In this document: piece by piece, positions 16,561 through 40,727 of the stretch
How positions within the stretch are numbered: the first letter of the stretch is position 1
Layout: every line of letters starts with the position of its first letter
DNA from: a virus
Reading direction: 5' to 3' (one strand)
DNA: 40,727 bases
Virus record (IMG/VR): IMGVR_UViG_3300022690_002568
Location: 1-40,727 of that record
The notes under the pieces: model-generated
The model's input: the letters and a program-made list of their open reading frames with translations, nothing else
Database searches by the model: none
What the model was told of the DNA's origin: nothing
Made by a program: the position numbers and the translations under genes

Positions 16561-16770
16561 TTGACTTGGAAGAAACGTGGTGCCAAACTACTTTCTGTAT
16601 TCTTTACAGGGTATGGCGGAGGATTTGCCGTAGTTATTCCAGCAAATTATTTGTACGCGCCAGATATAATGAACTGGACGGCCATATTCGCACTTCCACT
16701 AATATCAGGCTTAATAATGCTATGGCCTCAAGTTGGAAAGATGTTTGGAGAGATGGCTAATGGCTCTTAA
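16561..16770 (+). CDS. Two-helix membrane protein, holin-like
   Basis: The 69 residues start at TTG 16561 (MTWKKRGAK). A basic N-terminus precedes a first membrane helix (LLSVFFTGYGGGFAVVIPA), then a short loop NYLYAPDIMN and a second helix (AIFALPLISGLIMLW). The size, two helices and charged ends fit small holins. The next gene overlaps its last eleven bases. It is the first of three such proteins around the metalloprotease. Holin assignment is inference from topology and context. Confidence 0.6.
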   Translation: MTWKKRGAKLLSVFFTGYGGGFAVVIPANYLYAPDIMNWTAIFALPLISGLIMLWPQVGKMFGEMANGS

Positions 16771-16987
16771 AGAGGCACTTTTAGAATGGGTTCCAGATGC
16801 CTATTATGAAAATGGCACAAAAGCAGAATGTATTTGGTATAAAATTTTTAACATGTTTGATGTTCACAGTCAAAGTTTTAAGCAAGTGAAGGAAAAAAGA
16901 GATATGGATAAAAAAAAAGAGTTAAACTCAGTACCAATATGGGGTCCAGAGTTTAATAGTAGAACAGGAAAATTAGTAAAGTCCTAA
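16760..16987 (+). CDS. 75-residue soluble protein overlapping the holin-like gene
   Basis: ATG 16760 gives MALKEALLEWVPDAYYENG and a product with a single Cys, a basic stretch VKEKRDMDKKKEL and a C-terminus SRTGKLVKS. A longer frame from 16733 would overlap the previous gene more and is less likely. The stop lies 14 bases inside the 3' end of the opposing zinc-ribbon gene. No family is recognised. Translational coupling to the membrane protein suggests a shared process. Confidence 0.6.
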   Translation: MALKEALLEWVPDAYYENGTKAECIWYKIFNMFDVHSQSFKQVKEKRDMDKKKELNSVPIWGPEFNSRTGKLVKS

Positions 16988-17173
16988 TTCTTTTGCATCA
17001 AACCACATAATATGATGACATTTACTACATTTTGCTAGTGCATAGTTATAATTTTGTATTTTAACCATACTAGTACGTATTATGTCATATCCACAAATTG
17101 GACAGTTGAATTTTATGTTTTTTGATGTTAATATAGTTGTTATATCACGTTCCGTTATATCACCTCTTTGCAA
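16973..17173 (-). CDS. Zinc-ribbon protein on the minus strand
   Basis: This 66-residue protein has CPIC (residues ~24-27) and CSKC (~49-52), a standard two-knuckle zinc ribbon, with a C-terminus IMWFDAKELGLY. It starts at TTG 17173, about 25 nt from an A/T-rich TATA-like stretch on the minus strand. It interrupts the plus-strand lysis-type region and converges on the 75-residue gene with a 15-base overlap. Transcript interference with that module is possible. Its biochemical role is unknown. Confidence 0.65.
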   Translation of the reverse strand: MQRGDITERDITTILTSKNIKFNCPICGYDIIRTSMVKIQNYNYALAKCSKCHHIMWFDAKELGLY

Positions 17174-17277
17174 ATCCTTACAAAATTTGTATTTAACTCA
17201 TAAAATGCAATAAGGTCTATCTGAAAAAGGGATATGTGGCCAGTTTTTAAGTAACCTATATTGAATATAATTAAGAT

Positions 17278-17580
17278 ATGAGTTTAGACGATGACGCAAA
17301 AGCACTTGGTTCACTTGGACGACAAGAAATTCTAACTGTTTTAATAATTCTAGTTCTAATAATGATTCCAATTGGTGCCATTATATTAATAATAATAGCA
17401 CTATCAAATCCTGATGTTGTATCGAAAATTGATATTGAAGGAACTATAGACTTTGGACGATTTTTAGACAAGGTAATTGAGAGCTATGATGCATTCTTGT
17501 TACTTCTTGGAGTAGGAATAGGATCATCTGTAACAGTTGGCGGAATTAAGATGGGTCACGCTCTAAGAAAGACATCATGA
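17278..17580 (+). CDS. Two-helix membrane protein upstream of metalloprotease
   Basis: The 100 residues comprise an acidic N-terminus (MSLDDDAKALGS), a very hydrophobic helix (ILTVLIILVLIMIPIGAIIL...) and a second helix near residues 73-92 (AFLLLLGVGIGSSVTVGGI), then a basic tail. The stop overlaps the protease start by ATGA, a strong sign of coupled expression. Topology fits a holin or a membrane anchor for the protease. It has its own AT-rich promoter region after the divergent zinc-ribbon gene. Confidence 0.7.
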   Translation: MSLDDDAKALGSLGRQEILTVLIILVLIMIPIGAIILIIIALSNPDVVSKIDIEGTIDFGRFLDKVIESYDAFLLLLGVGIGSSVTVGGIKMGHALRKTS

Positions 17581-18326
17581 TTATCATGACTGATAAAATG
17601 TGCAGAGCAACGGTTAATGAAAAAGGTAAAATCTCTTTTGATAGTGCAATATCTAATGGTTCAACTCTAGAAGAAATTATTCAAGGTGATAAACAATATG
17701 GTATGATGGTTCCCAGAAATGGAGCATACTTTACGTATAGAGTAGAAGACTGGCAAAATAGATGGATGAAACTCAAACAACTAAGAAAAGGAATTGCCCT
17801 TGCTTGGACTACAGTCGAAAAAGTAATTGATATTGATGTAAGAGAAGCCAAAATCGATGAACTTCCAGACTTTACAATATATTTTAGAAAAACAGATGAT
17901 GATCCATATCTAACATCAAATACGTTAATGTATCATTATTATCCAATATCAGATATCAATAATCCAAACAGGGGAGTTTGTGTAGTTAATGCAGATTATA
18001 TATGGACTATGGATGGCGAAGGGATACCGCTATACATATTTGATCCTGAACATTATCCTGAACCTGTAGGATCGACTGTGAAAACATTTGACTTTGATGA
18101 TATCTATGTTCACGAAGGCCCCGGTCATGGATTAGGATTACCACACTCTCCAAATCTAAATACAAAAATGTACGGAAATGCATCAGGAATGGCAAACACA
18201 ATATTTGATGAAACACCATATGAAACCATTCCAAGACTACAAGCAAAATATCCAAAAAAAGAAATTAGTGCATGGCATTTATTTAGGTGGATTAGATATC
18301 TCCTTCGTAGAAGAGAGAAATATTAG
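17577..18326 (+). CDS. Matrixin-like zinc metalloprotease, candidate S-layer protease
   Basis: In this 249-residue protein, residues ~100-225 follow the matrixin (metzincin M10-like) order: strand FTIYF, a MYHYYP segment, NRGVCVVNADYIWTMDG, then VHEGPGHGLGLPHS (H179, E180, H184, H190) and a Met-turn-like KMYG (M198), followed by a helix IPRLQAKYP like the usual IQALYG. The zinc motif has one residue more than the canonical HExxHxxGxxH. There is no signal peptide. The gene is coupled to a membrane protein on its 5' side and followed by another. Thaumarchaea are bounded by a protein S-layer, so a protease could serve for release or entry (inference). Confidence 0.7.
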   Translation: MIIMTDKMCRATVNEKGKISFDSAISNGSTLEEIIQGDKQYGMMVPRNGAYFTYRVEDWQNRWMKLKQLRKGIALAWTTVEKVIDIDVREAKIDELPDFTIYFRKTDDDPYLTSNTLMYHYYPISDINNPNRGVCVVNADYIWTMDGEGIPLYIFDPEHYPEPVGSTVKTFDFDDIYVHEGPGHGLGLPHSPNLNTKMYGNASGMANTIFDETPYETIPRLQAKYPKKEISAWHLFRWIRYLLRRREKY

Positions 18327-18334
18327 CTGTAATT

Positions 18335-18652
18335 ATGGCAAAATTACCAAGAACAAAAAATATAATTCAAAATTTCGTAATTGTAATAGCAATGTTGTAT
18401 GTATTTGGAACCTCGGCTGTTGGTTACTTTGCTCCACAACTCCTTGCAGGTGAAGACGGCGAACTTACAGGATTCCAGAAACAAACACTTGAGAATTCGT
18501 ATATTCTTATAGTTGTAATCATTTCAGGTTCTATTGCAGCAATTGCATTAGATAAACGAGACTCACAAGAAACTGATATGGTCGAAAAACTTTTAGCAAC
18601 TTTAGATAAGATTGATCCTCAGATAGTCAAGAAAGCCCAAGAGAAACTATAA
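18335..18652 (+). CDS. Two-helix membrane protein downstream of metalloprotease
   Basis: This 105-residue protein has a basic N-terminus MAKLPRTKN, a first membrane helix (FVIVIAMLYVFGTSAVGYFA), a short loop with Gly/Glu, and a second helix (YILIVVIISGSIAAIALD). A charged C-terminal helix then ends IVKKAQEKL. This is the third two-helix membrane protein of the module. It starts eight bases after the protease stop. Holin-, antiholin- or spanin-like roles are all possible. Confidence 0.7.
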   Translation: MAKLPRTKNIIQNFVIVIAMLYVFGTSAVGYFAPQLLAGEDGELTGFQKQTLENSYILIVVIISGSIAAIALDKRDSQETDMVEKLLATLDKIDPQIVKKAQEKL

Positions 18653-18713: not shown

Positions 18714-18729
18714 AAATGCATATATTTTA
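18714..18729 (+). promoter_or_regulatory. Late-type promoter, copy 3
   Basis: AAATGCATATATTTTA matches the shared late element. The C of CATATA is 30 nt from TTG 18749. The ATG inside this element (18716) is part of the promoter rather than a start codon. Confidence 0.8.
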
Positions 18730-18748
18730 TATTTATTTGCTAAATATA

Positions 18749-19477
18749 TTGAGTCAAAATAAGATAGGACTAAACTATAAATTTCTACTTTTATTAGCTG
18801 TAATATTTATCGCATTTCAGGTAAATGATGCATACTCTATGAAAATTAGTTGTTCTGAGCAAGTCATTGCCTCTGGTGAATATCCAATATGTGACTATGT
18901 AGACGAGTGGAATGACTCACATGAATTTGGTGATTTGGTACTTGCAGAAAATACACTTAGAATAGACGAGCTAGGGCCATCCATTTTAGTAGAAACGGAT
19001 ATAGAGGATTTTATAGACGAAGAAATTTTTGAAGAACGTATAGTAGGTATGCTCATAGCTGACAGTATTATTAAAGAAGAAATAAACTATATCCTACAAG
19101 ATATTCTTATAGACGATGAGATTCTTATAGACGATGAGATTCTTATAGACGATGAGATTCTTATAGAAATAAAGTCCATTCTTGTAGAATATGTAGAAAC
19201 TGTAAAAGGCATAGAAAACATAAAAGACATTCTTTTCGACTACATAGAAAATCTAGCAACTATAACAGATATAGAAAATATTCTAGATAACGACATTGTT
19301 GTAGAAGCGGAATACACCGATTCCTTCCCATTAAATGCAGGTGATCAAGAGCTTATAGAGATATGGCAACAGATAAACCAAGACTCAATAGACAAAATAA
19401 ATATAGAATATCCCGGATTAGAAGAGAAATGCAACGAGCTTAGAGACTGGGTGTATGATAAGATAAAAATAAATTAA
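18749..19477 (+). CDS. Secreted acidic protein with tandem ILIDDE repeats
   Basis: The protein has 242 residues when started at TTG 18749, the position dictated by promoter spacing. The N-terminus MSQNKIGLNYKF, then LLLLAVIFIAFQVNDAYS, is a textbook signal peptide. The longer frame from 18716 would bury it. The mature part is very acidic and Ile-rich, with Cys near the start, three perfect repeats of ILIDDE, long amphipathic helices and a terminal Cys. Likely exported and possibly surface-associated or divalent-cation-binding. No family is recognised. It follows the protease module, so a role at the envelope is plausible. Confidence 0.65.
   Translation: MSQNKIGLNYKFLLLLAVIFIAFQVNDAYSMKISCSEQVIASGEYPICDYVDEWNDSHEFGDLVLAENTLRIDELGPSILVETDIEDFIDEEIFEERIVGMLIADSIIKEEINYILQDILIDDEILIDDEILIDDEILIEIKSILVEYVETVKGIENIKDILFDYIENLATITDIENILDNDIVVEAEYTDSFPLNAGDQELIEIWQQINQDSIDKINIEYPGLEEKCNELRDWVYDKIKIN
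19103..19168 (+). repeat. 18-bp tandem repeat encoding ILIDDE
   Basis: ATTCTTATAGACGATGAG occurs three times in perfect tandem (19103-19156) with a partial fourth unit to about 19168. Identical DNA units suggest recent slippage expansion, so copy number may vary among relatives. Confidence 0.9.
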
Positions 19478-23009: not shown

Positions 23010-23512
23010 TTTTGGTCCTACAAACTATTCAAATTGAACGAAGATGGGCTATGCCTAATCATAAAACATTTCAAATTAAACCAATCAAGGAATTAATTTA
23101 TGTTGAATTAGGAGAAAATTATACAGATGTTTTTCCTCATCCATATGATAGAGACGCTTTAGAACTTTTACAGAGTATTAAATCCGAGTCTATTAAAAAA
23201 TTGGCTTTTGATCCTGTTTATTCATTAAGGCAACTCAAAGAGAAATATGAATCTAAAGGCATTTCATTAACCCAACATGAAACTCAATCCTATTGGAGCG
23301 ACTTACGAAAACAAATTGCAAGAGTAATAAAAATAGATGGTAAGGTTATTTCATTTGGCTGGAATAGTATTGGTATAGGTAAAAAAAGAGGATTTGAGAT
23401 TAATAGAATTCTATTAGTTTGTCATGGTGGACATCATAATGATACTATATGTACTGTAGAAACTAAATTACGCAAAACATTTCAAATCAACAGTTCAGGA
23501 GAGAAAAAATAA
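23006..23512 (+). CDS. Degenerate DNA methyltransferase-like protein (DPVY in place of DPPY)
   Basis: This 168-residue protein has the framework of a viral DPPY adenine methyltransferase: FQIKPIKELI, a short YDRDALELLQ region, LAFDPVYSLRQLKEKY (D69-P-V-Y72), YWSDLRKQIARVIK, VISFGWNSIGIGKKRGFE, and LLVCHGGHHNDTICTVE. The second Pro of the catalytic motif is Val, and the usual VDPFA-type SAM motif region is shortened. It may be inactive or altered in specificity. Translation could begin at 23006 (ATGA overlap) or ATG 23051, which is nearer the usual family start. Confidence 0.65.
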   Translation: MILVLQTIQIERRWAMPNHKTFQIKPIKELIYVELGENYTDVFPHPYDRDALELLQSIKSESIKKLAFDPVYSLRQLKEKYESKGISLTQHETQSYWSDLRKQIARVIKIDGKVISFGWNSIGIGKKRGFEINRILLVCHGGHHNDTICTVETKLRKTFQINSSGEKK

Positions 23513-23715
23513 TGGCTTGTAAAGGAATCTGTGACAAATATAAAGCTAAAAAGCCTGCTGGAGCAGGCCGATATGCAAATGGACAGCGTCGGTGCAGGAC
23601 CTGTGATATTTTCATAAAATGTGATAATATACACTGTCCTTGTTGTGGATATAGATTAAGGACACATCCTCGTAACAGAAAAGCCAAAGAAAAGTGTAGG
23701 GGATTGAGGATGTAG
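23512..23715 (+). CDS. MACKGIC-type zinc protein, copy 1
   Basis: This 67-residue protein starts MACKGICDKYKAKKP, then has CRTC and CPCCGYRLRTHPRNRKAKE, a multi-Cys treble-clef or ribbon with a basic tail. I know this architecture as a widespread small family of thaumarchaeal genomes, which supports the host call. It overlaps the methyltransferase-like gene by one base (TAATG). It is the first of three tandem copies; its 3' part is almost identical in DNA to copy 3. Confidence 0.8.
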   Translation: MACKGICDKYKAKKPAGAGRYANGQRRCRTCDIFIKCDNIHCPCCGYRLRTHPRNRKAKEKCRGLRM

Positions 23716-23717
23716 AA

Positions 23718-23921
23718 ATGGCTTGTAAAGGAATTTGTGTTAAATATAAAGCTAAAGAGATTCCTGGGATCAGTCGGTATGCTATAACACACAGTATATG
23801 CGCAACTTGTGAAATTGTTATGATAATTGGTAATACACATTGTCCTTGTTGTGGACATAAATTAAAAAAACATCCTCGTGGTATTCAAAAAAAAGAGAAT
23901 TTGAGGGAATTAAAGGTATAG
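23718..23921 (+). CDS. MACKGIC-type zinc protein, copy 2
   Basis: This 67-residue paralogue (MACKGICVKYKAKEIPGI) keeps every Cys of copy 1 (CATC, CPCCG), but its C-terminal half has diverged (KLKKHPRGIQKKENLREL). It shares its N-terminal DNA with copy 3 more than with copy 1. It starts two bases after copy 1. The conserved metal ligands in a diverged copy argue that all copies are functional. Confidence 0.8.
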   Translation: MACKGICVKYKAKEIPGISRYAITHSICATCEIVMIIGNTHCPCCGHKLKKHPRGIQKKENLRELKV

Positions 23922-23924
23922 AAT

Positions 23925-24128
23925 ATGGTCTGCAAAGGAATTTGTGTTAAATACAAAGCTAAAAAGATTTGGAAAACTAGTAGCTATGCTATAGGACAAA
24001 GTAAATGCAAAAATTGTGACATTTTCATGATGTTGGATGGTGTATTTTGTCCTTGTTGTGGATGTAGATTAAGGACACATCCTCGTAACAGAAAAGCCAA
24101 AGAAAAGTGTAGGAATGATATATCTTGA
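23925..24128 (+). CDS. MACKGIC-type zinc protein, copy 3
   Basis: This 67-residue paralogue starts MVCKGICVKYKAKKIWKT, with CKNC and CPCCGCRLRTHPRNRKAKE. The last 66-base block (24048-24113) differs from copy 1 (23635-23700) at a single base, whereas the front half matches copy 2 better. This mosaic suggests gene conversion. Its stop overlaps the TTG start of the next gene. Confidence 0.8.
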   Translation: MVCKGICVKYKAKKIWKTSSYAIGQSKCKNCDIFMMLDGVFCPCCGCRLRTHPRNRKAKEKCRNDIS

Positions 24129-28982: not shown

Positions 28983-30845
28983 TTGCCTCACACAATTGAT
29001 TATCGTTTTGAACAGGTCGAGGATCAATTTGAACAGATGGAAAACCCAAATTTTAATCGTCTCGAAGCAAAAGATGTATGGGAGTGGATACAAAAGTACA
29101 GACCAAATGTAGGTGGTGACACTAGGAACTTTGATCTTATACCGTTTTGGAAGGAATTTTATCTAGACTCACACAAAAGAAAAGGTGCTTTATGTGGAAG
29201 GCAGGTGTACAAAAGTACAGCAGCAACAGACCACTTGGCATATCTTCCAACTACAGGTGCATTTAGAAGTACGGGGTATGTTGTTCATGATCCTGATTCA
29301 CTAGAGGCATTTTCAACTGAGAGAGTACGAGAGGGTACGTTCCTTGCTAATCCACAATTGGCATCATTTCTACCTCATGGTAGAGCAAATGTAAAGACCA
29401 TACGATTAACTAACCATTCTCGAATATACTTTAGGCATTCTCAGCATAATTATTCAAAGGTAGAAGGATTAACATTGTGGTTGTTAGTATTAGATGAAGC
29501 TCAGAAACATGACCTAACAAAACTTAGAGTGGCCATGCATACTATTCGTACAACCAAAGGACCGTTAATTATGTTTGGGATAGGTGGTGAGGAGGGAAGT
29601 TCATGGCATGACTTGATAACTAGAGAGGCGGAAATATATGATTGGGTGTATGATGATACATCTGATTATATAGATTCAGTAACCGGTAAAACGTGGCAAA
29701 AACAAGGATGGCGTAATAAACTAATATTTGATGGTGAAGGTAAGATAACTAACACATCTGACGAGTTATCGACTATTTTAGCTGGTGATGTAAGCCTAGT
29801 ACATAGTCCAACGTCAGGTGTGCCAACGTATAAGATCTATCATTTTCCTCAGGAGATATTTGCAACAATTCCATTAACCATATCTGATTGTAAAAAATAC
29901 AAAATGGAAATACAAGATTCTATAGAGTATCAAGAGATTCATGAATCAGATGATTTATTTCAAGCACATTGTAAGGGTTGGTTTTATGCTGCAAGAGGCC
30001 GACCCCTTACCCTTAATATGATTAGAAAATGCTATGATGGTGCAATAGGCTTTCTTACACCCAACGAAATACAATCACTTAAAGAAAAACATGGCAGTGA
30101 TATGTATGTTACTGCAGGGATAGATTGGGGTTCCAATAAATCTGGAAAATCTTACACTGTGTTTGTCGTGTTGCTTTGTTTTAAAAAGAACATGTACGAA
30201 ACCGATCACTTTCAAATAGCATATATGAAAAAGTTCCTCAAGGAACGCTCAGATACAGAAGAGGCCTTGGATCTTATTCCCCTAATACAAAAATATCATG
30301 TGGATAATACCGCAGCAGATCTGGGCTTTGGTAAATCCGGTGTAAAGATATTGCAGGACGGCTTACCACATTTAGGAGTAAAGGGATTATCCAGAGGTAA
30401 AGTTCATGGAGTATTTACTTTGGGTAATTTATTAGAAGAAACACACACATATCAGATAGAGGCGGAAACTGAGGGAATAAAGAATCCATTTCTAAAGGTA
30501 CACAAAACAGAAAGGGTTGATGATTTAATACAAATAGTAAAGTCCACCATCCCCGATAAAAAAGACCCGACAAATAAAGAAAAGGCAAAACCTAAACTGA
30601 TCATTCCATATGAAAATCCACATGATGTAGATTCATTAGAACAAGGATTACTAAAGATAAAAAGAGCAGATCTGGAAGATGATACATTAGGTATAAAGTC
30701 AGAAGGTGATAAACGGCAGTACCCAGAGAAACTATATGAACATTACTGGGATGAAGTGTCAGCACTTATCCATGCATTTATTGCATTTGAGAACTATGAC
30801 CCTGGAGCATATACTATGAGAGTTGTTAAAAGAAAACATCACTAA
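28983..30845 (+). CDS. terL: Terminase large subunit
   Basis: The protein has 620 residues from TTG 28983, which abuts the previous stop; an in-frame ATG at 29037 is possible. ATPase: Walker-A-type GRQVYKST (residues 72-79) in which Tyr replaces the usual Gly before Lys, and Walker B LLVLDEAQ (D171, E172). RNase-H-like nuclease: AGIDWGSN (D381), AADLGFG (D446) and YWDEVSALIHAF (D590), giving the expected acidic triad. It translocates DNA into proheads through the portal. The portal gene is displaced about 2 kb downstream by an accessory block. Confidence 0.9.
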   Translation: MPHTIDYRFEQVEDQFEQMENPNFNRLEAKDVWEWIQKYRPNVGGDTRNFDLIPFWKEFYLDSHKRKGALCGRQVYKSTAATDHLAYLPTTGAFRSTGYVVHDPDSLEAFSTERVREGTFLANPQLASFLPHGRANVKTIRLTNHSRIYFRHSQHNYSKVEGLTLWLLVLDEAQKHDLTKLRVAMHTIRTTKGPLIMFGIGGEEGSSWHDLITREAEIYDWVYDDTSDYIDSVTGKTWQKQGWRNKLIFDGEGKITNTSDELSTILAGDVSLVHSPTSGVPTYKIYHFPQEIFATIPLTISDCKKYKMEIQDSIEYQEIHESDDLFQAHCKGWFYAARGRPLTLNMIRKCYDGAIGFLTPNEIQSLKEKHGSDMYVTAGIDWGSNKSGKSYTVFVVLLCFKKNMYETDHFQIAYMKKFLKERSDTEEALDLIPLIQKYHVDNTAADLGFGKSGVKILQDGLPHLGVKGLSRGKVHGVFTLGNLLEETHTYQIEAETEGIKNPFLKVHKTERVDDLIQIVKSTIPDKKDPTNKEKAKPKLIIPYENPHDVDSLEQGLLKIKRADLEDDTLGIKSEGDKRQYPEKLYEHYWDEVSALIHAFIAFENYDPGAYTMRVVKRKHH

Positions 30846-32878: not shown

Positions 32879-34531
32879 ATGAAGTTACCTTCATCAAAAA
32901 GTATTAGACAAAGTATGGCTAAATTTATTCAGCCACAAAGCAATATTCCCAAAGTAATCAACAATACAAACTCTCTATCTTTACAGTCATTAAAACATCA
33001 TATGAATATGCCAATAACTGAATTGTCACCGGGAATGTCTCAGCCGGTATGGGGGCCTGAATTATCTACAGTTGGTGCATATTCTAGAGAAGGTTACACA
33101 TCAAAGACATTTGATATTCCAGCCGTATTATTCAGTATACAGGCCAAGGCATTGCAAATTGATGAGGATGTACAGTATTCAATAAATAATTTATCTGCAC
33201 AAATTACAGGTGGCGAGCATTACATTAAGACGGCTTCACAAGAATTAACAGAATATATGGAGGAATTTTCACATGATATAGACTTTGATACATTTGATAC
33301 TGTACTGATTAAAGAATTATTGTGGTATGGCAACTCTGTCTGGAAACCTCGTATGGGAATTCAAAATGTAAGATCATATAAGGATTTAATGCATATTCCA
33401 ATATCATCATTTGTTAGGGTCTGGTGGGACAGGCAAAGACAACCGTACAAGTATGAGTTTAGGGGAGCAGAATATCAGGGGTATCACAATCCAGGTGAGA
33501 TTATCCACTTTGTTTGGAATCCTATAGATGCTTCGGTATTCGGTACAGGCTTTGGAGTAGCAGTTACATCACCCAGAGTATTTAGTATGGTGGTTAATGG
33601 AGATGAAGTACAGACAGTTACATTGCCATCAATGCTTGACAGAAAATACGCTACACAGTTTATCATGCAGATGGCAACACAGAGATACGTTCCAAGAAAT
33701 GTCTATACTGCCATTGGAGGAAGTGAAGATGAAAGAAATCAACTACAATCTTTTGTAGAACAACTACAGATTGGCGAAGATTTGGTATCAGGTACACAAC
33801 TAGATGTTCAAGAACTGGGTACCAATACGCGCTCTTTTAATCCTACAGAGCATATTGAAACTGTCGCCTCACCAATTATGAAGGGGTTGAATGACTTTTC
33901 AGGAAAGCAAGGATCAGAAAGCTCTCACACCTTTGCCAATGCTGAAACTGCCAAAGAAGAATCAGATGGAGGATTGACAGCATTTACCATTAACATAAAG
34001 ACGCAGCTTGCAAAGAAATTATTCCGTCCTTGGTATGAAGCAAATCCATTTATGGGAAATATGTATCTGGATGGGTTGATTCCTGTTGATTGGAATGACG
34101 TAAAGTTTGAGCTTAACTTTGGCAAATTAGAGAAGAAAGATATTCCAATAGAGGACTTGATTAAATTGATAGACTCTTATCAGAATAATCCGGTATTAAT
34201 GCAGAACATAAAACCTCTACTTGATATGTATAAGATGGCAGGTATTCCTATTGATGATGATACTGCAGAGAGCATCAACAATATGTATAACGATCCTACG
34301 GGTCAACTGGCATTAAATAATGTAGAAAATGATTCTGAATTACCGCAAAATGATATGGGTGGTGGAGAGGTAGAACCGCAATTTAATAATCAAACAATGG
34401 GTAATCCACCAATGGATGATGATATTTATGATTCAATGATGAAAGATGTACGGGGAAGTGATTATTTCCAATCAGATGTATCACAAGACTTTGATTATGG
34501 AAGATACTATGAAACGAGGAAGAAAAAGTGA
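32879..34531 (+). CDS. Portal protein
   Basis: This 550-residue protein has the layout of siphovirus-type portals. The early part has SIQAKALQIDEDVQYSINNL, then the wing region with LLWYGNSVWKPRMG and VWWDRQRQPYKYEF, a GEIIHFVWNPID strand, and the stem/crown helices around LQSFVEQLQIGEDLVSG to the FRPWYEANP region. The acidic Asn/Met-rich C-terminal tail is typical. It forms the dodecameric DNA channel at the head vertex. It is led by a late-type promoter and overlapped at its 3' end by a small basic gene. Confidence 0.85.
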   Translation: MKLPSSKSIRQSMAKFIQPQSNIPKVINNTNSLSLQSLKHHMNMPITELSPGMSQPVWGPELSTVGAYSREGYTSKTFDIPAVLFSIQAKALQIDEDVQYSINNLSAQITGGEHYIKTASQELTEYMEEFSHDIDFDTFDTVLIKELLWYGNSVWKPRMGIQNVRSYKDLMHIPISSFVRVWWDRQRQPYKYEFRGAEYQGYHNPGEIIHFVWNPIDASVFGTGFGVAVTSPRVFSMVVNGDEVQTVTLPSMLDRKYATQFIMQMATQRYVPRNVYTAIGGSEDERNQLQSFVEQLQIGEDLVSGTQLDVQELGTNTRSFNPTEHIETVASPIMKGLNDFSGKQGSESSHTFANAETAKEESDGGLTAFTINIKTQLAKKLFRPWYEANPFMGNMYLDGLIPVDWNDVKFELNFGKLEKKDIPIEDLIKLIDSYQNNPVLMQNIKPLLDMYKMAGIPIDDDTAESINNMYNDPTGQLALNNVENDSELPQNDMGGGEVEPQFNNQTMGNPPMDDDIYDSMMKDVRGSDYFQSDVSQDFDYGRYYETRKKK

Positions 34532-34689
34532 TATACAAAATTAAAAGATGTGTAGATAAAATACAGAAAAAAGATATAGATTATGCGTATGCATATGTCA
34601 AATGCAACGCACCTATAGAAGAAAGCATCAACAAACAAATAGTTGAAGCTAGTTTAAAGAGGAAATGTAAATGTCAGAAAAAGAGTTGA
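34528..34689 (+). CDS. 53-residue basic Cys-containing protein
   Basis: GTG 34528 overlaps the portal stop (GTGA). The product is MIYKIKRCVDKIQKKDIDYA..., with a C-terminal KRKCKCQKKS and four Cys in all. It overlaps the start of the next gene by 19 bases. Tight overlap on both sides supports translation. The basic, Cys-bearing nature suggests nucleic-acid contact or a metal site, possibly in head assembly. Confidence 0.5.
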   Translation: MIYKIKRCVDKIQKKDIDYAYAYVKCNAPIEESINKQIVEASLKRKCKCQKKS

Positions 34690-36320
34690 TGATATTAGAT
34701 GCAAACACTTTACAAAAAAAGAAACAACTACGTAACAAAGAATTAGAAGATAGAGGAATTCCTGAACCTGAAAGAAGTAGGGCAGTAGAGGCGGAGTTTG
34801 TTGATTATATCACACCTGACGCTGAGCCTTGGCCTGGTGAAATAACTGGAATAGACTTGGCAGGAAACATTAATTTTGATCTTATATTTGCATCACGATT
34901 TCCACCAATAATCCAGCCAACCACTCCATATACTCAGCCATTCCCAACCGCATCTACTAATCCATATCCAAACAATCCGACACCAGATCCAAACAGTGTT
35001 GAAAATGAATCCAACACATATGATGTTGTGAATTATCCTGCAGAGCCATCACACAATTGGATAGCAACTGGTAATCAGACAAACTCCGAACCACACTCAG
35101 AAGGAGTAAACGGATTTAATTCTTATAAAGCAATACCTGAATGGCGTTATCCCATAGAGCAACGAAGAATGGATATTAACATTCCACCAATAATTATTGA
35201 ACCCAGCGGTCAGTTTAACGAGGCCATAATTCCTAAAGAAGAGAAAAAATCATTACTTAAAAAACTGGCACCTTTGTTGGCTGTATTGGGTGCAGGATTT
35301 TCTGCCAGCCAACTAATTGATGATTATATGGATGATGCACCAGAAGAACCAAAAGCACGAGACAGATATTTTACATACACTCCTATGGAATTAATTGCAG
35401 AGTTTACACTATCATCTTCACATACAGGTAAAGACGTATGTGATGATTATGTAGGAAAATCATTTGATTTACTAAATACAACAAACAGGCCTGTACTTCC
35501 TAGTGAAGGCAAAGGGTACACTGAACTTGTGCATCCCAATTGCCATTGCACATGGAAGATTATAAAAAAGCCAAAGACAGGAATTGATACACTAACTAGA
35601 AAACAAACGACAGAGTTTGATGATATAAATGCACATATTAAAACGGCTGCCAAAAATCATACCCTACACACAGTAAAGGCTGATGGCTCTCTATCCAAAA
35701 GAACTCGCGGTACAAATCCAATCCAAGAGATAATAGGAAAGATAAGAGATCAGGTAAAATGGCTATCTGATGAATATATTACAAAGGCAAAAGAAACTGC
35801 CCTAAATAATAATGGTGTATTATATCTGATAAAGGCAGCAGCAGAAACAATCACCGATCATAGATCAGAAGGTGAAGAATACCGTAGAAAGTTATCCGGA
35901 AAGGAATTAAATTCAATGGCTAGAACTGCAGTAGGGCAAAAAATGGACATTAATCATAATCCAGATTATATCACAGGTGGAATAATTGCTGACTCTGAAT
36001 ATGACTCGCAAAGAAAAGAGATACAAATGTTAGTTATAGAAACAGATCCACAGATCAATCAGTATATCGCGGATGGTTCTATTAGTGCCGTGTCAATTAA
36101 TGGCGGTAACCCCCGTTCACAAAGTATAGAACCATGTCATGATGGATGTATTGGTGATCAATGTGAATTGTGCAATGTTCCTCAAGGTGTAATATTAGGA
36201 GAAATAGATGGTGTTGGCATGACTTGGGTTGTTACTATACCACAGGGAATAATATGGAAAGGTATCCATATTCCAGAGGCCACACCTGGAATTAAATCAA
36301 CTGTAATTGAAATATTGTAA
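34671..36320 (+). CDS. Head morphogenesis protein fused to prohead protease
   Basis: This 549-residue protein has several parts. Residues ~70-190 are a Pro/Asn-rich linker and ~200-230 a hydrophobic segment (LLKKLAPLLAVLGAGFSA). Residues ~235-300 carry the minor-head (Mu gpF/SPP1 gp7-like) end motif HPNCHCTW (288-295), with an upstream conserved Cys (DVCDDY). Residues ~410-549 resemble an XkdF-type prohead protease: YITGGIIADSEYDSQRKEI, INQYIADGSISAVSINGG and a terminal strand set. The fusion would bring capsid maturation cleavage and portal-proximal assembly together. The family calls are from motif recognition, without alignment. Confidence 0.65.
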   Translation: MSEKELMILDANTLQKKKQLRNKELEDRGIPEPERSRAVEAEFVDYITPDAEPWPGEITGIDLAGNINFDLIFASRFPPIIQPTTPYTQPFPTASTNPYPNNPTPDPNSVENESNTYDVVNYPAEPSHNWIATGNQTNSEPHSEGVNGFNSYKAIPEWRYPIEQRRMDINIPPIIIEPSGQFNEAIIPKEEKKSLLKKLAPLLAVLGAGFSASQLIDDYMDDAPEEPKARDRYFTYTPMELIAEFTLSSSHTGKDVCDDYVGKSFDLLNTTNRPVLPSEGKGYTELVHPNCHCTWKIIKKPKTGIDTLTRKQTTEFDDINAHIKTAAKNHTLHTVKADGSLSKRTRGTNPIQEIIGKIRDQVKWLSDEYITKAKETALNNNGVLYLIKAAAETITDHRSEGEEYRRKLSGKELNSMARTAVGQKMDINHNPDYITGGIIADSEYDSQRKEIQMLVIETDPQINQYIADGSISAVSINGGNPRSQSIEPCHDGCIGDQCELCNVPQGVILGEIDGVGMTWVVTIPQGIIWKGIHIPEATPGIKSTVIEIL

Positions 36321-39039: not shown

Positions 39040-39534
39040 ATGACAAGTACAAATAGATTTCAAGGACTTCATAGAGGTCCAATAGATCACAAATCAAGTT
39101 CTGTTATTAATCAAGTATCCGATGGTGCCATAGACATGGGATCAGTTATTGCATTAGTTGCTCCTGTTATTACAAGTGAAACATTACCTAGAGTAGAAGA
39201 AATTACCGATGCTGGAAGCGAGCTGGTTTACGGTGTAGCTGTTGGTGGAGATACTGATGGTATATACGGTGATGGCTCAGTTAGTGTAGATGATTCAACT
39301 AGAGCTACAAATGGGGCTGGTCAAGGTGTCGTAGTAGTTACACAAGGAAGATGTTTAGCTAGAGTTCTTGGTCCTGTATCTATTGGTAATCTTCTTACAC
39401 AATCCGGAACAAGTGGTGTGTTAGACATTGCAGATACCGATTTGGATGCAGTTATAGCAATTGCACTATTTGATATTCCTGGAACTGATACAGACATGAT
39501 TGCAGTAGATGTTCAAAGAGGTGGAGTCGTATGA
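39040..39534 (+). CDS. Decoration-type capsid protein, paralogue 3
   Basis: This 164-residue protein, the closest relative of paralogue 2, has GPIDHKSSSVINQVS, VYGVAVGGDTDGIYGDGS and ATNGAGQGVVVVTQG, ending DMIAVDVQRGGVV. Its stop overlaps the capsid start by ATGA, so it and the capsid protein are translated together, the usual arrangement for a stoichiometric decoration protein. Function is inferred from context and beta-rich sequence. Confidence 0.7.
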   Translation: MTSTNRFQGLHRGPIDHKSSSVINQVSDGAIDMGSVIALVAPVITSETLPRVEEITDAGSELVYGVAVGGDTDGIYGDGSVSVDDSTRATNGAGQGVVVVTQGRCLARVLGPVSIGNLLTQSGTSGVLDIADTDLDAVIAIALFDIPGTDTDMIAVDVQRGGVV

Positions 39535-40718
39535 CCAAATCCAAAATGAATAGACAAACAATTTTGGCAATGCCAGAGTTTGCTCATATTAAAGAAGCCC
39601 TACATGCAACTGCTCAAGCCAGAGGTACTAAAGACATTTGGCAACCAATTAGAGAAACACCATTCGAAGTATTTTATGCTAAAGGAGATAATTCATTTTA
39701 CAAAGAAACACCAAATCCAAATTTACCATCAATCTGGAAAGATATGTATGGTATGAGAATTGGTGATATGGCAACTGGTAACGCAAAAATTGGCGGAATA
39801 CCCTTACAAGAAACAGTATCAGTTCCAAACAGTTTATCTGCTTTGAAAATTGCAGATGAGATATTAGAGGGTGCAGAGCCTTATTCCAACTGGAAACAAT
39901 ACTCTCGCGTTATAGATATGAGTACACCAAAAGTCAATGTTCCAATTACAAAATATACTGATACTGTAGGTGGTTCAATTACTGATCAGAAAGGAATTAT
40001 AATTTTCAAAGAAGGCGGTACAGGAACACCTCCAGCAATAGGCGGTAAGGTAGAAACTGTAGAGCTAGATTGTTCAGGTACAAATAATTCATACCGAGGT
40101 ACCTTAGCAGTAGAAAGAAATGATGTTAAAGATAATAACTTTTTAGCAGTTGAACAGTCACTAAAAAATGCAGGTAATGAATTTTACTATATGGTAGGAG
40201 AAGACCTAATTACATCTCAAGTGGCAGCAACAATAAATACTGATACAAAATCAAACTTAGCTAGTGGAGTACCATCAAACAAAGAACTAGAAGCCTTAGT
40301 CCAAGTGATTAGAGGCGAATTCCCCGGTTCACAAAGAAATAGAGCAGATACAATGTTTATTCATCCTCTTGATGCAGCACTAGCTGTAAAGAACGCAGGA
40401 ACAAATGGTGAATATGCATTTATCAGTAGATTCTTACTTGGTCCAACTGATGCCTCAGATGTAGTAAATAACTCAGGTCTGGCAATAGCATTAGGACTAC
40501 GAAATGTATGGGAAACCCCACAAATTATCCAGGGTACAGTTCTTATCACAAAAAGAGATATCAACCAAGTTGTTGGACTTCGTGAAGATCTAACAATTGA
40601 GAGTTTCGATCTTTCAGTAGGCGGATTGTACGAAAGTGATTTGGTAATACGATACGACAAAAAAGCAGCACATGCAGATGTTGGTTCTTTTACAATTACG
40701 GCATTTGATATTGCATAG
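39531..40718 (+). CDS. Major capsid protein (HK97-type)
   Basis: This 395-residue protein has an N-terminal helical region (MTKSKMNRQTILAMPEFAHI), an E-loop-like stretch near residues 60-110, and a spine helix around VEQSLKNAGNEFYYMVGEDL. P-domain strands follow, with RADTMFIHPLDAALAVKNAG (the common 'position the residue in the subunit' motif of phage capsids), IALGLRNVWETPQIIQGTVL and a final ESDLVIRYDKK strand. Size and pattern fit HK97-fold capsid proteins, and all genes around it are head genes. It is coupled to decoration paralogue 3 and followed in the circle by the 69-residue gene. Confidence 0.85.
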   Translation: MTKSKMNRQTILAMPEFAHIKEALHATAQARGTKDIWQPIRETPFEVFYAKGDNSFYKETPNPNLPSIWKDMYGMRIGDMATGNAKIGGIPLQETVSVPNSLSALKIADEILEGAEPYSNWKQYSRVIDMSTPKVNVPITKYTDTVGGSITDQKGIIIFKEGGTGTPPAIGGKVETVELDCSGTNNSYRGTLAVERNDVKDNNFLAVEQSLKNAGNEFYYMVGEDLITSQVAATINTDTKSNLASGVPSNKELEALVQVIRGEFPGSQRNRADTMFIHPLDAALAVKNAGTNGEYAFISRFLLGPTDASDVVNNSGLAIALGLRNVWETPQIIQGTVLITKRDINQVVGLREDLTIESFDLSVGGLYESDLVIRYDKKAAHADVGSFTITAFDIA

Positions 40719-40727
40719 GACTGAAAA
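40584..40727. repeat. Terminal direct repeat, right copy
   Basis: This is identical over 144 bases to the start of the window. It shows that the sequence closes on itself in the capsid gene and the adjoining nine-base spacer. Confidence 0.95.

Follow-up and report, generated by a model that had tools for sequence, protein, structure and literature searches.

The viral record IMGVR_UViG_3300022690_002568, analysed here over its whole 40,727 nucleotides (the window), encodes what is probably a late lysis cassette of a tailed archaeal virus, organised like a holin-endolysin system but with a protease replacing the peptidoglycan hydrolase. The evidence comprises the matrixin fold of the protease, the coupling of its gene to that of a small membrane protein, the recurrence of this pairing and the swapping of the partners in other viruses, and purifying selection on the cassette genes of relatives. 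In the proposed mechanism, the two-helix protein p100 would gather in the cell membrane, probably partnered or timed by p69 and p105, and the two-helix proteins would then open the membrane. The matrixin, produced in the cytoplasm without a leader, would reach the outside through the opened membrane and cut the protein S-layer, upon which the cell would burst. An S-layer lysis module had been proposed for this DNA in an earlier note; the proposal is partly supported, with the conserved pairing, the two-sided partner swapping and the archaeal hosts indicated by the MCM helicases of relatives now added in its favour.

The first and last 144 bases of the 40.7-kb record are identical (1-144 and 40584-40727), and because of this exact direct terminal repeat at both ends the genome is complete; the gene that follows the MCP gene runs on at window position 145. 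The virus is a tailed one, with a large terminase that has a PHROG terminase match (28983-30845). The cassette (Table 1) is located beyond the tail and fibre genes and away from the capsid gene, while in most relatives it is found between the major capsid gene and the tail genes. The protease start codon overlaps the p100 stop codon by ATGA, a second two-helix ORF begins 8 nt past the protease stop, and a third small membrane ORF with a TTG start is located ~0.8 kb upstream of the protease, a layout that the earlier note had described, and its coordinates hold without exception. A 66-aa Cys-rich, zinc-ribbon-like ORF, the homologue of which is absent from related loci, is encoded on the minus strand between p75 and p100 (16973-17173). 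Just past the cassette, a 253-aa protein is encoded that has a tandem ILIDDE repeat and whose N-terminus is signal-like (18716-19477), and three tandem 67-aa Cys-rich, zinc-ribbon-like paralogues occur at 23512-24128. In the conserved head protein encoded between the portal and MCP genes (34671-36317), two residues of the C-terminal domain, His429 and Ser475, are invariant.

Table 1. Coordinates of the cassette genes and of the head genes in the window.
Feature	Position	Strand	Remarks
p69, 69-aa putative two-helix membrane protein	16561..16770	+	TTG start, basic N-terminus; conserved cassette partner
p75, 75-aa soluble protein	16760..16987	+	overlaps p69 end
p100, 100-aa two-helix holin-like protein	17278..17580	+	acidic inter-helix loop, basic C-terminus
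Matrixin-fold metalloprotease, 249 aa	17577..18326	+	PF00413, profile, Foldseek, alignments A1, A6, A11
p105, 105-aa two-helix protein	18335..18652	+	charged amphipathic tail; read directly
Portal	32879-34531		label from gene order and conservation
Head protein	34671-36320		label from gene order and conservation
MCP	39531-40718		label from gene order and conservation

The window protease matches the Pfam family PF00413 (Peptidase M10) above the cut-off (E 3e-7, 30.9 bits, cut-off 24), with its relatives scoring up to 94 bits. When a profile of eleven viral homologues was compared with the PDB, human MMP-12 was matched with an E-value of 2.4e-21, and MMP-12, MMP-3 and MMP-13 all fell at ~2e-21 to 3e-21. 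An AlphaFold model of the window protease derived with fifteen homologues (pLDDT 77, pTM 0.79) matched MMP-13 in Foldseek (E 4.4e-7, probability 1.00, TM 0.73 of the target); a first model based on 11 sequences was set aside (pLDDT 54). The matrixin-like character that the earlier note had ascribed to the protease is thus borne out by family, profile and predicted structure. Neither a signal peptide, a TM helix nor a signal-like hydrophobic segment was found in the matrixins inspected, those of the window and its relatives, and the enzyme would therefore need help in leaving the cell. No fused structural or adhesin domain was seen on the matrixin. Every one of the 15 sequences in alignment A6 has a Cys near the N-terminus, provided that L132 starts at its TTG, as the residue appears in L132/L088 if translation begins at this upstream codon. 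In most A6 members the conserved Cys is 5-12 residues from the start, and it is placed deeper in L122/L030 and L124, the starts of which were probably called too far upstream. In the L145 matrixin, which falls outside A6, residue 5 counted from the called start is a Cys. By analogy with the cysteine switch of the MMPs, it may be speculated that the N-terminal Cys holds the enzyme latent inside the cell.

The zinc motif of the window protease, HEGPGHGLGLPH, corresponds to the canonical HExxHxxGxxH with one extra residue; the three His and the Glu are all kept, and the Met-turn (M198) is located past the motif. Most relatives, including the closest ones (L131, L050 and L052), carry the canonical HExxH(xxGxxH), and variants with one additional residue recur in L145 (HELGGH) and L129 (HEFGHSIIGLRH). 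The HEGPGH of the window protease, in which Gly-Pro-Gly falls within the catalytic helix, could possibly render the enzyme inactive. A sequencing error was considered an unlikely source of HEGPGH, given the in-frame gain of a single codon and the HELGGH of L145. The proline in the active helix and the canonical HExxH of the closest relatives would speak for a decayed cassette in the window virus, with the module real in the relatives, the window copy inactivated by the extra residue and lysis brought about by something else. This reading, which does not conflict with a lysis cassette as the main explanation at family level, is nevertheless unlikely, as the Met-turn, the Glu and each of the three His are kept, L145 also has a hexapeptide, and passages of a report on M49 peptidases describe these enzymes in active hexapeptide HEXXGH as well as pentapeptide forms (PMC5805324).

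The p100 protein shares 58% identity with the 105-aa proteins of L080 and L081, the genes of which overlap matrixin genes by the same ATGA, with a dN/dS of 0.21 against L080. With its 100 aa, two helices and ATGA overlap, it fits the pattern of a small protein with one to three TM helices encoded beside a lytic enzyme gene. For p69, which itself carries two weaker predicted helices, full-length homologues are encoded in L046-L049, L052, L125/126, L145, L146 and L148 (34-41% identity to those of L046, L048, L052, L125, L145, L146 and L148), showing that this TTG-initiated gene is real. A p75 homologue is encoded beside the p69 homologue in L052/L088 (40% identity over 40 aa) and L146 (36%). Homologues exist for all cassette ORFs except p105, for which none was found in related loci and only a weak match to a PHROG holin (E 0.039) was obtained; a second holin or an antiholin is a possible role for p105. 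Three holin-like proteins, as counted in the earlier note, is thus too generous: p100 and p69 stand with conserved homologues, while p105 does not. Spurious short ORFs were ruled out for p100 and p69 by these homologues and by dN/dS values below 0.35, and across the cassette genes of the relatives dN/dS ranges from 0.05 to 0.35, indicating purifying selection. None of the window membrane proteins matched a Pfam or PHROG family above threshold, and the membrane protein of one relative showed a weak match, below the cut-off, to Phage_holin_8. Holins are hyperdiverse, and the missing family match therefore lowers the likelihood of a known holin but leaves that of a protein working like one. The label holin is applied here on the basis of size, predicted topology and gene position.

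With the window protease as the single query sequence, zero relatives were returned from viral contigs, genome contigs or GenBank phages, and the matrixin family surfaced only when the whole records of the collected MCP relatives were searched; later rounds made use of the protease and p69 alignments. A matrixin above the cut-off is encoded in ten of the 46 MCP-relative records. The other 36, many of which are fragments, are without one, as is the closest complete-length relative (G005), and MCP relatives without a matrixin must use other means. After merging of near-identical contigs, 17 independent loci were distinguished, namely the window, L027/L031, L032, L030/L122, L042, L053, L059, L050, L052, L062, L085, L125/L126, L127, L128, L131, L145 and L146. 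In 13 of these the gene immediately upstream of the matrixin on the same strand encodes a two- or three-helix protein of 60-108 aa, with gaps of -65 to +79 nt (starts as called) and several instances of ATGA coupling. Among the remainder, L128 and L131 are near misses, with a 53-aa one-helix protein 35 nt and a three-helix protein 165 nt upstream of the matrixin, respectively. No TM gene is adjacent upstream in L085, where a homologue of the L125 two-helix protein occurs ~0.5 kb downstream, nor in L062/L089, where a two-helix gene is found ~1.4 kb upstream. By comparison, only five of 510 other genes of at least 150 aa in the matrixin genomes are preceded in this way, two of the five being the HEALH genes described below. 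The binomial P for 10 of 15 loci, a count since raised to 13 of 17, was 2e-17, a value to be taken as a guide only, as the loci are related by descent and a simple rule based on hydropathy was used to count helices. The earlier note had made conservation of the gene order its own test, and the order does extend beyond the window; a small membrane protein of two or three helices is paired with a matrixin in many viruses, and this pairing is strongly conserved.

The membrane proteins upstream of the matrixins belong to types without visible similarity to one another (window/L080/L081; L082/L083/L084; L087; L088; L125/L085; L030/L046/L048; L127/L131), with L086 possibly belonging to the type of the window. 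The L030/L122 membrane protein precedes a matrixin, while its 69%-identical homologue in L046, like its homologue in L048, precedes a HEALH protein of 158-181 aa. This HEALH protein (L046:13483-13959 and L048:11673-12218) is a non-matrixin found in the matrixin's place behind the same two-helix protein, and a convincing family match was not found for it. Thus different enzymes follow one and the same type of membrane protein, and different membrane proteins precede one and the same type of enzyme. Partner exchange of this kind is how phage lysis cassettes evolve, and swapping on both sides is therefore as a lysis cassette predicts. The p69 gene directly precedes the TM protein and matrixin genes in L125/L126 and L145, and the order p69-p75-TM-matrixin of the window recurs in L052/L088 and L146. 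An HNH-endonuclease-like gene (L088:14662-15168) is inserted between p75 and the three-helix gene in L088. The order p303-p272-TM-matrixin is also kept in L127, and in L148/L149 p69 is present and a matrixin was not found in the records. A homologue of the window MCP was not detectable in the L145, L146, L127, L128 and L131 records, some of which are fragments, and with the cassette present in such records the module seems to cross virus groups. It is plausible, if somewhat short of probable, that a widespread class of archaeal-virus lysis systems exists in several unrelated tailed-virus groups, in which interchangeable holin-like proteins would free a leaderless, Cys-latched matrixin or other HExxH zincin that dissolves the S-layer. 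Further small HExxH proteins, of 87-142 aa and forming a set of their own, are encoded at L046:12506-12925, L087:12117-12536, L082:11980-12357, L083:9652-10062, L098:17215-17505 and L104:3716-4072, several with an N-terminal helix and usually between a 330-390-aa one-helix protein and a two-helix gene. The four members scanned against Pfam gave zero matches; this set may represent a second protease acting on the envelope.

The related records G033, which is matrixin-bearing, G038 and G049 each encode an MCM helicase (666-703 aa). The G038 MCM, the only one tested, matches fourteen phage-collection records, all of archaeal viruses. Archaeal hosts for the virus group are thus supported by the MCM helicases of its members, and the window virus, which encodes a P4-type primase instead of an MCM, very probably infects archaea as well, a host assignment that we infer from these relatives. 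For the thaumarchaeal host presupposed in the earlier note no link was found: neither AmoC nor TFB, used as host markers, occurred in the related records, and the MCP had no match in GTDB genome contigs. The position of the TATA box showed no more than a weak excess at -31 to -26 and was dropped as a host marker.

The main rival to a lysis cassette is a virion-associated entry protease, in which the particle would bring the matrixin along to breach the S-layer on entry, with the membrane proteins either unrelated or aiding injection. Phage tail lysins clear the wall at entry, the same S-layer barrier is met there, and the location between the major capsid and tail genes in most relatives is one where a virion protein would also sit. 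The window gene, however, lies beyond the tail and fibre genes, the matrixin is without a fused structural or adhesin domain, its constant partner is a small membrane protein rather than a tail gene, and another HExxH enzyme is swapped in beside the same membrane protein, which makes this rival unlikely. An accessory gene acting on host proteins, in surface remodelling, superinfection exclusion or the killing of competitors rather than in lysis, would be in keeping with the patchy distribution and with the second small HExxH protein nearby in several matrixin-bearing viruses. Such a role is improbable, as the matrixin lacks an export signal and a function other than lysis would hardly account for its tight coupling to two-helix proteins of changing type. 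Capsid maturation, with the matrixin processing virion proteins in assembly, is highly improbable despite the late region and the proximity to capsid genes in relatives, as only a minority of MCP relatives encode the enzyme, pairing with a membrane protein is unexpected for a maturation enzyme, and the separate conserved head protein resembles, by eye only, a prohead serine protease. Searches of Pfam, PHROGs, NCBIfam and PDB sequences gave zero support for a prohead-protease identity of the head protein.

A lysis cassette is thus retained as the preferred reading. In a 2015 review, holins and S-layer proteases in archaeal viruses were only a hypothesis, the isolated archaeal viruses were without a known holin gene and S-layer-degrading enzymes were unknown (PMC4456609). 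The archaeal entries in a survey from 2025 of the lytic proteins of prokaryotic viruses are pseudomurein peptidases and pyramids, and a text search of this survey returned no metalloprotease (PMC12596118). Capsid-type proteases are mentioned in a paper on thaumarchaeal proviruses, in which holins and lysis do not occur (PMC6563490), and a survey of archaeal tailed viruses mentions neither holin nor protease (PMC8651126). No published description of a module of holin-like protein and matrixin was found in the open-access literature. An explanation is still sought for the lysis by tailed viruses of archaea that lack (pseudo)murein, and for protein-walled cells the cassette is a strong candidate answer, and it supplies named genes and many natural variants for direct testing at the bench. 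If the reading is true, it would represent a previously undescribed proteolytic counterpart of the holin-endolysin system.

As in the holin-endolysin systems of tailed phages, a small multi-helix membrane protein is encoded directly before a leaderless soluble enzyme, wall-degrading in phage and putatively so here, and both parts occur in many unrelated types that are freely recombined. The cassette differs in its matrixin-type protease in place of a murein hydrolase, in a host wall that is presumably of protein and in a pore that is so far conjectural. The viral matrixins share the fold, the HExxHxxGxxH-type zinc site and the Met-turn with the matrix metalloproteinases (MEROPS M10A), but show no MMP-like propeptide and have neither a secretion signal nor a hemopexin-like extension, and those of the window and L145 have a hexapeptide HExxGH. 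The best structural matches among viral proteins are the matrix metalloproteases of insect viruses (granulovirus, ascovirus and iridovirus), likewise virus-encoded matrixins; these are, however, enzymes of eukaryotic viruses without a link to holins. Like the putative S-layer protease described here, the pseudomurein endoisopeptidases of psiM1 and psiM100 are wall peptidases of archaeal tailed viruses which cross the membrane by an unexplained route (PMC4456609), but their target is pseudomurein and no holin has been identified beside them. The virus-associated pyramids of STIV and SIRV2 also provide egress of an archaeal virus through an S-layer-covered envelope, as proposed for the cassette, but do so by means of a single membrane protein that forms a seven-sided exit, with no protease.
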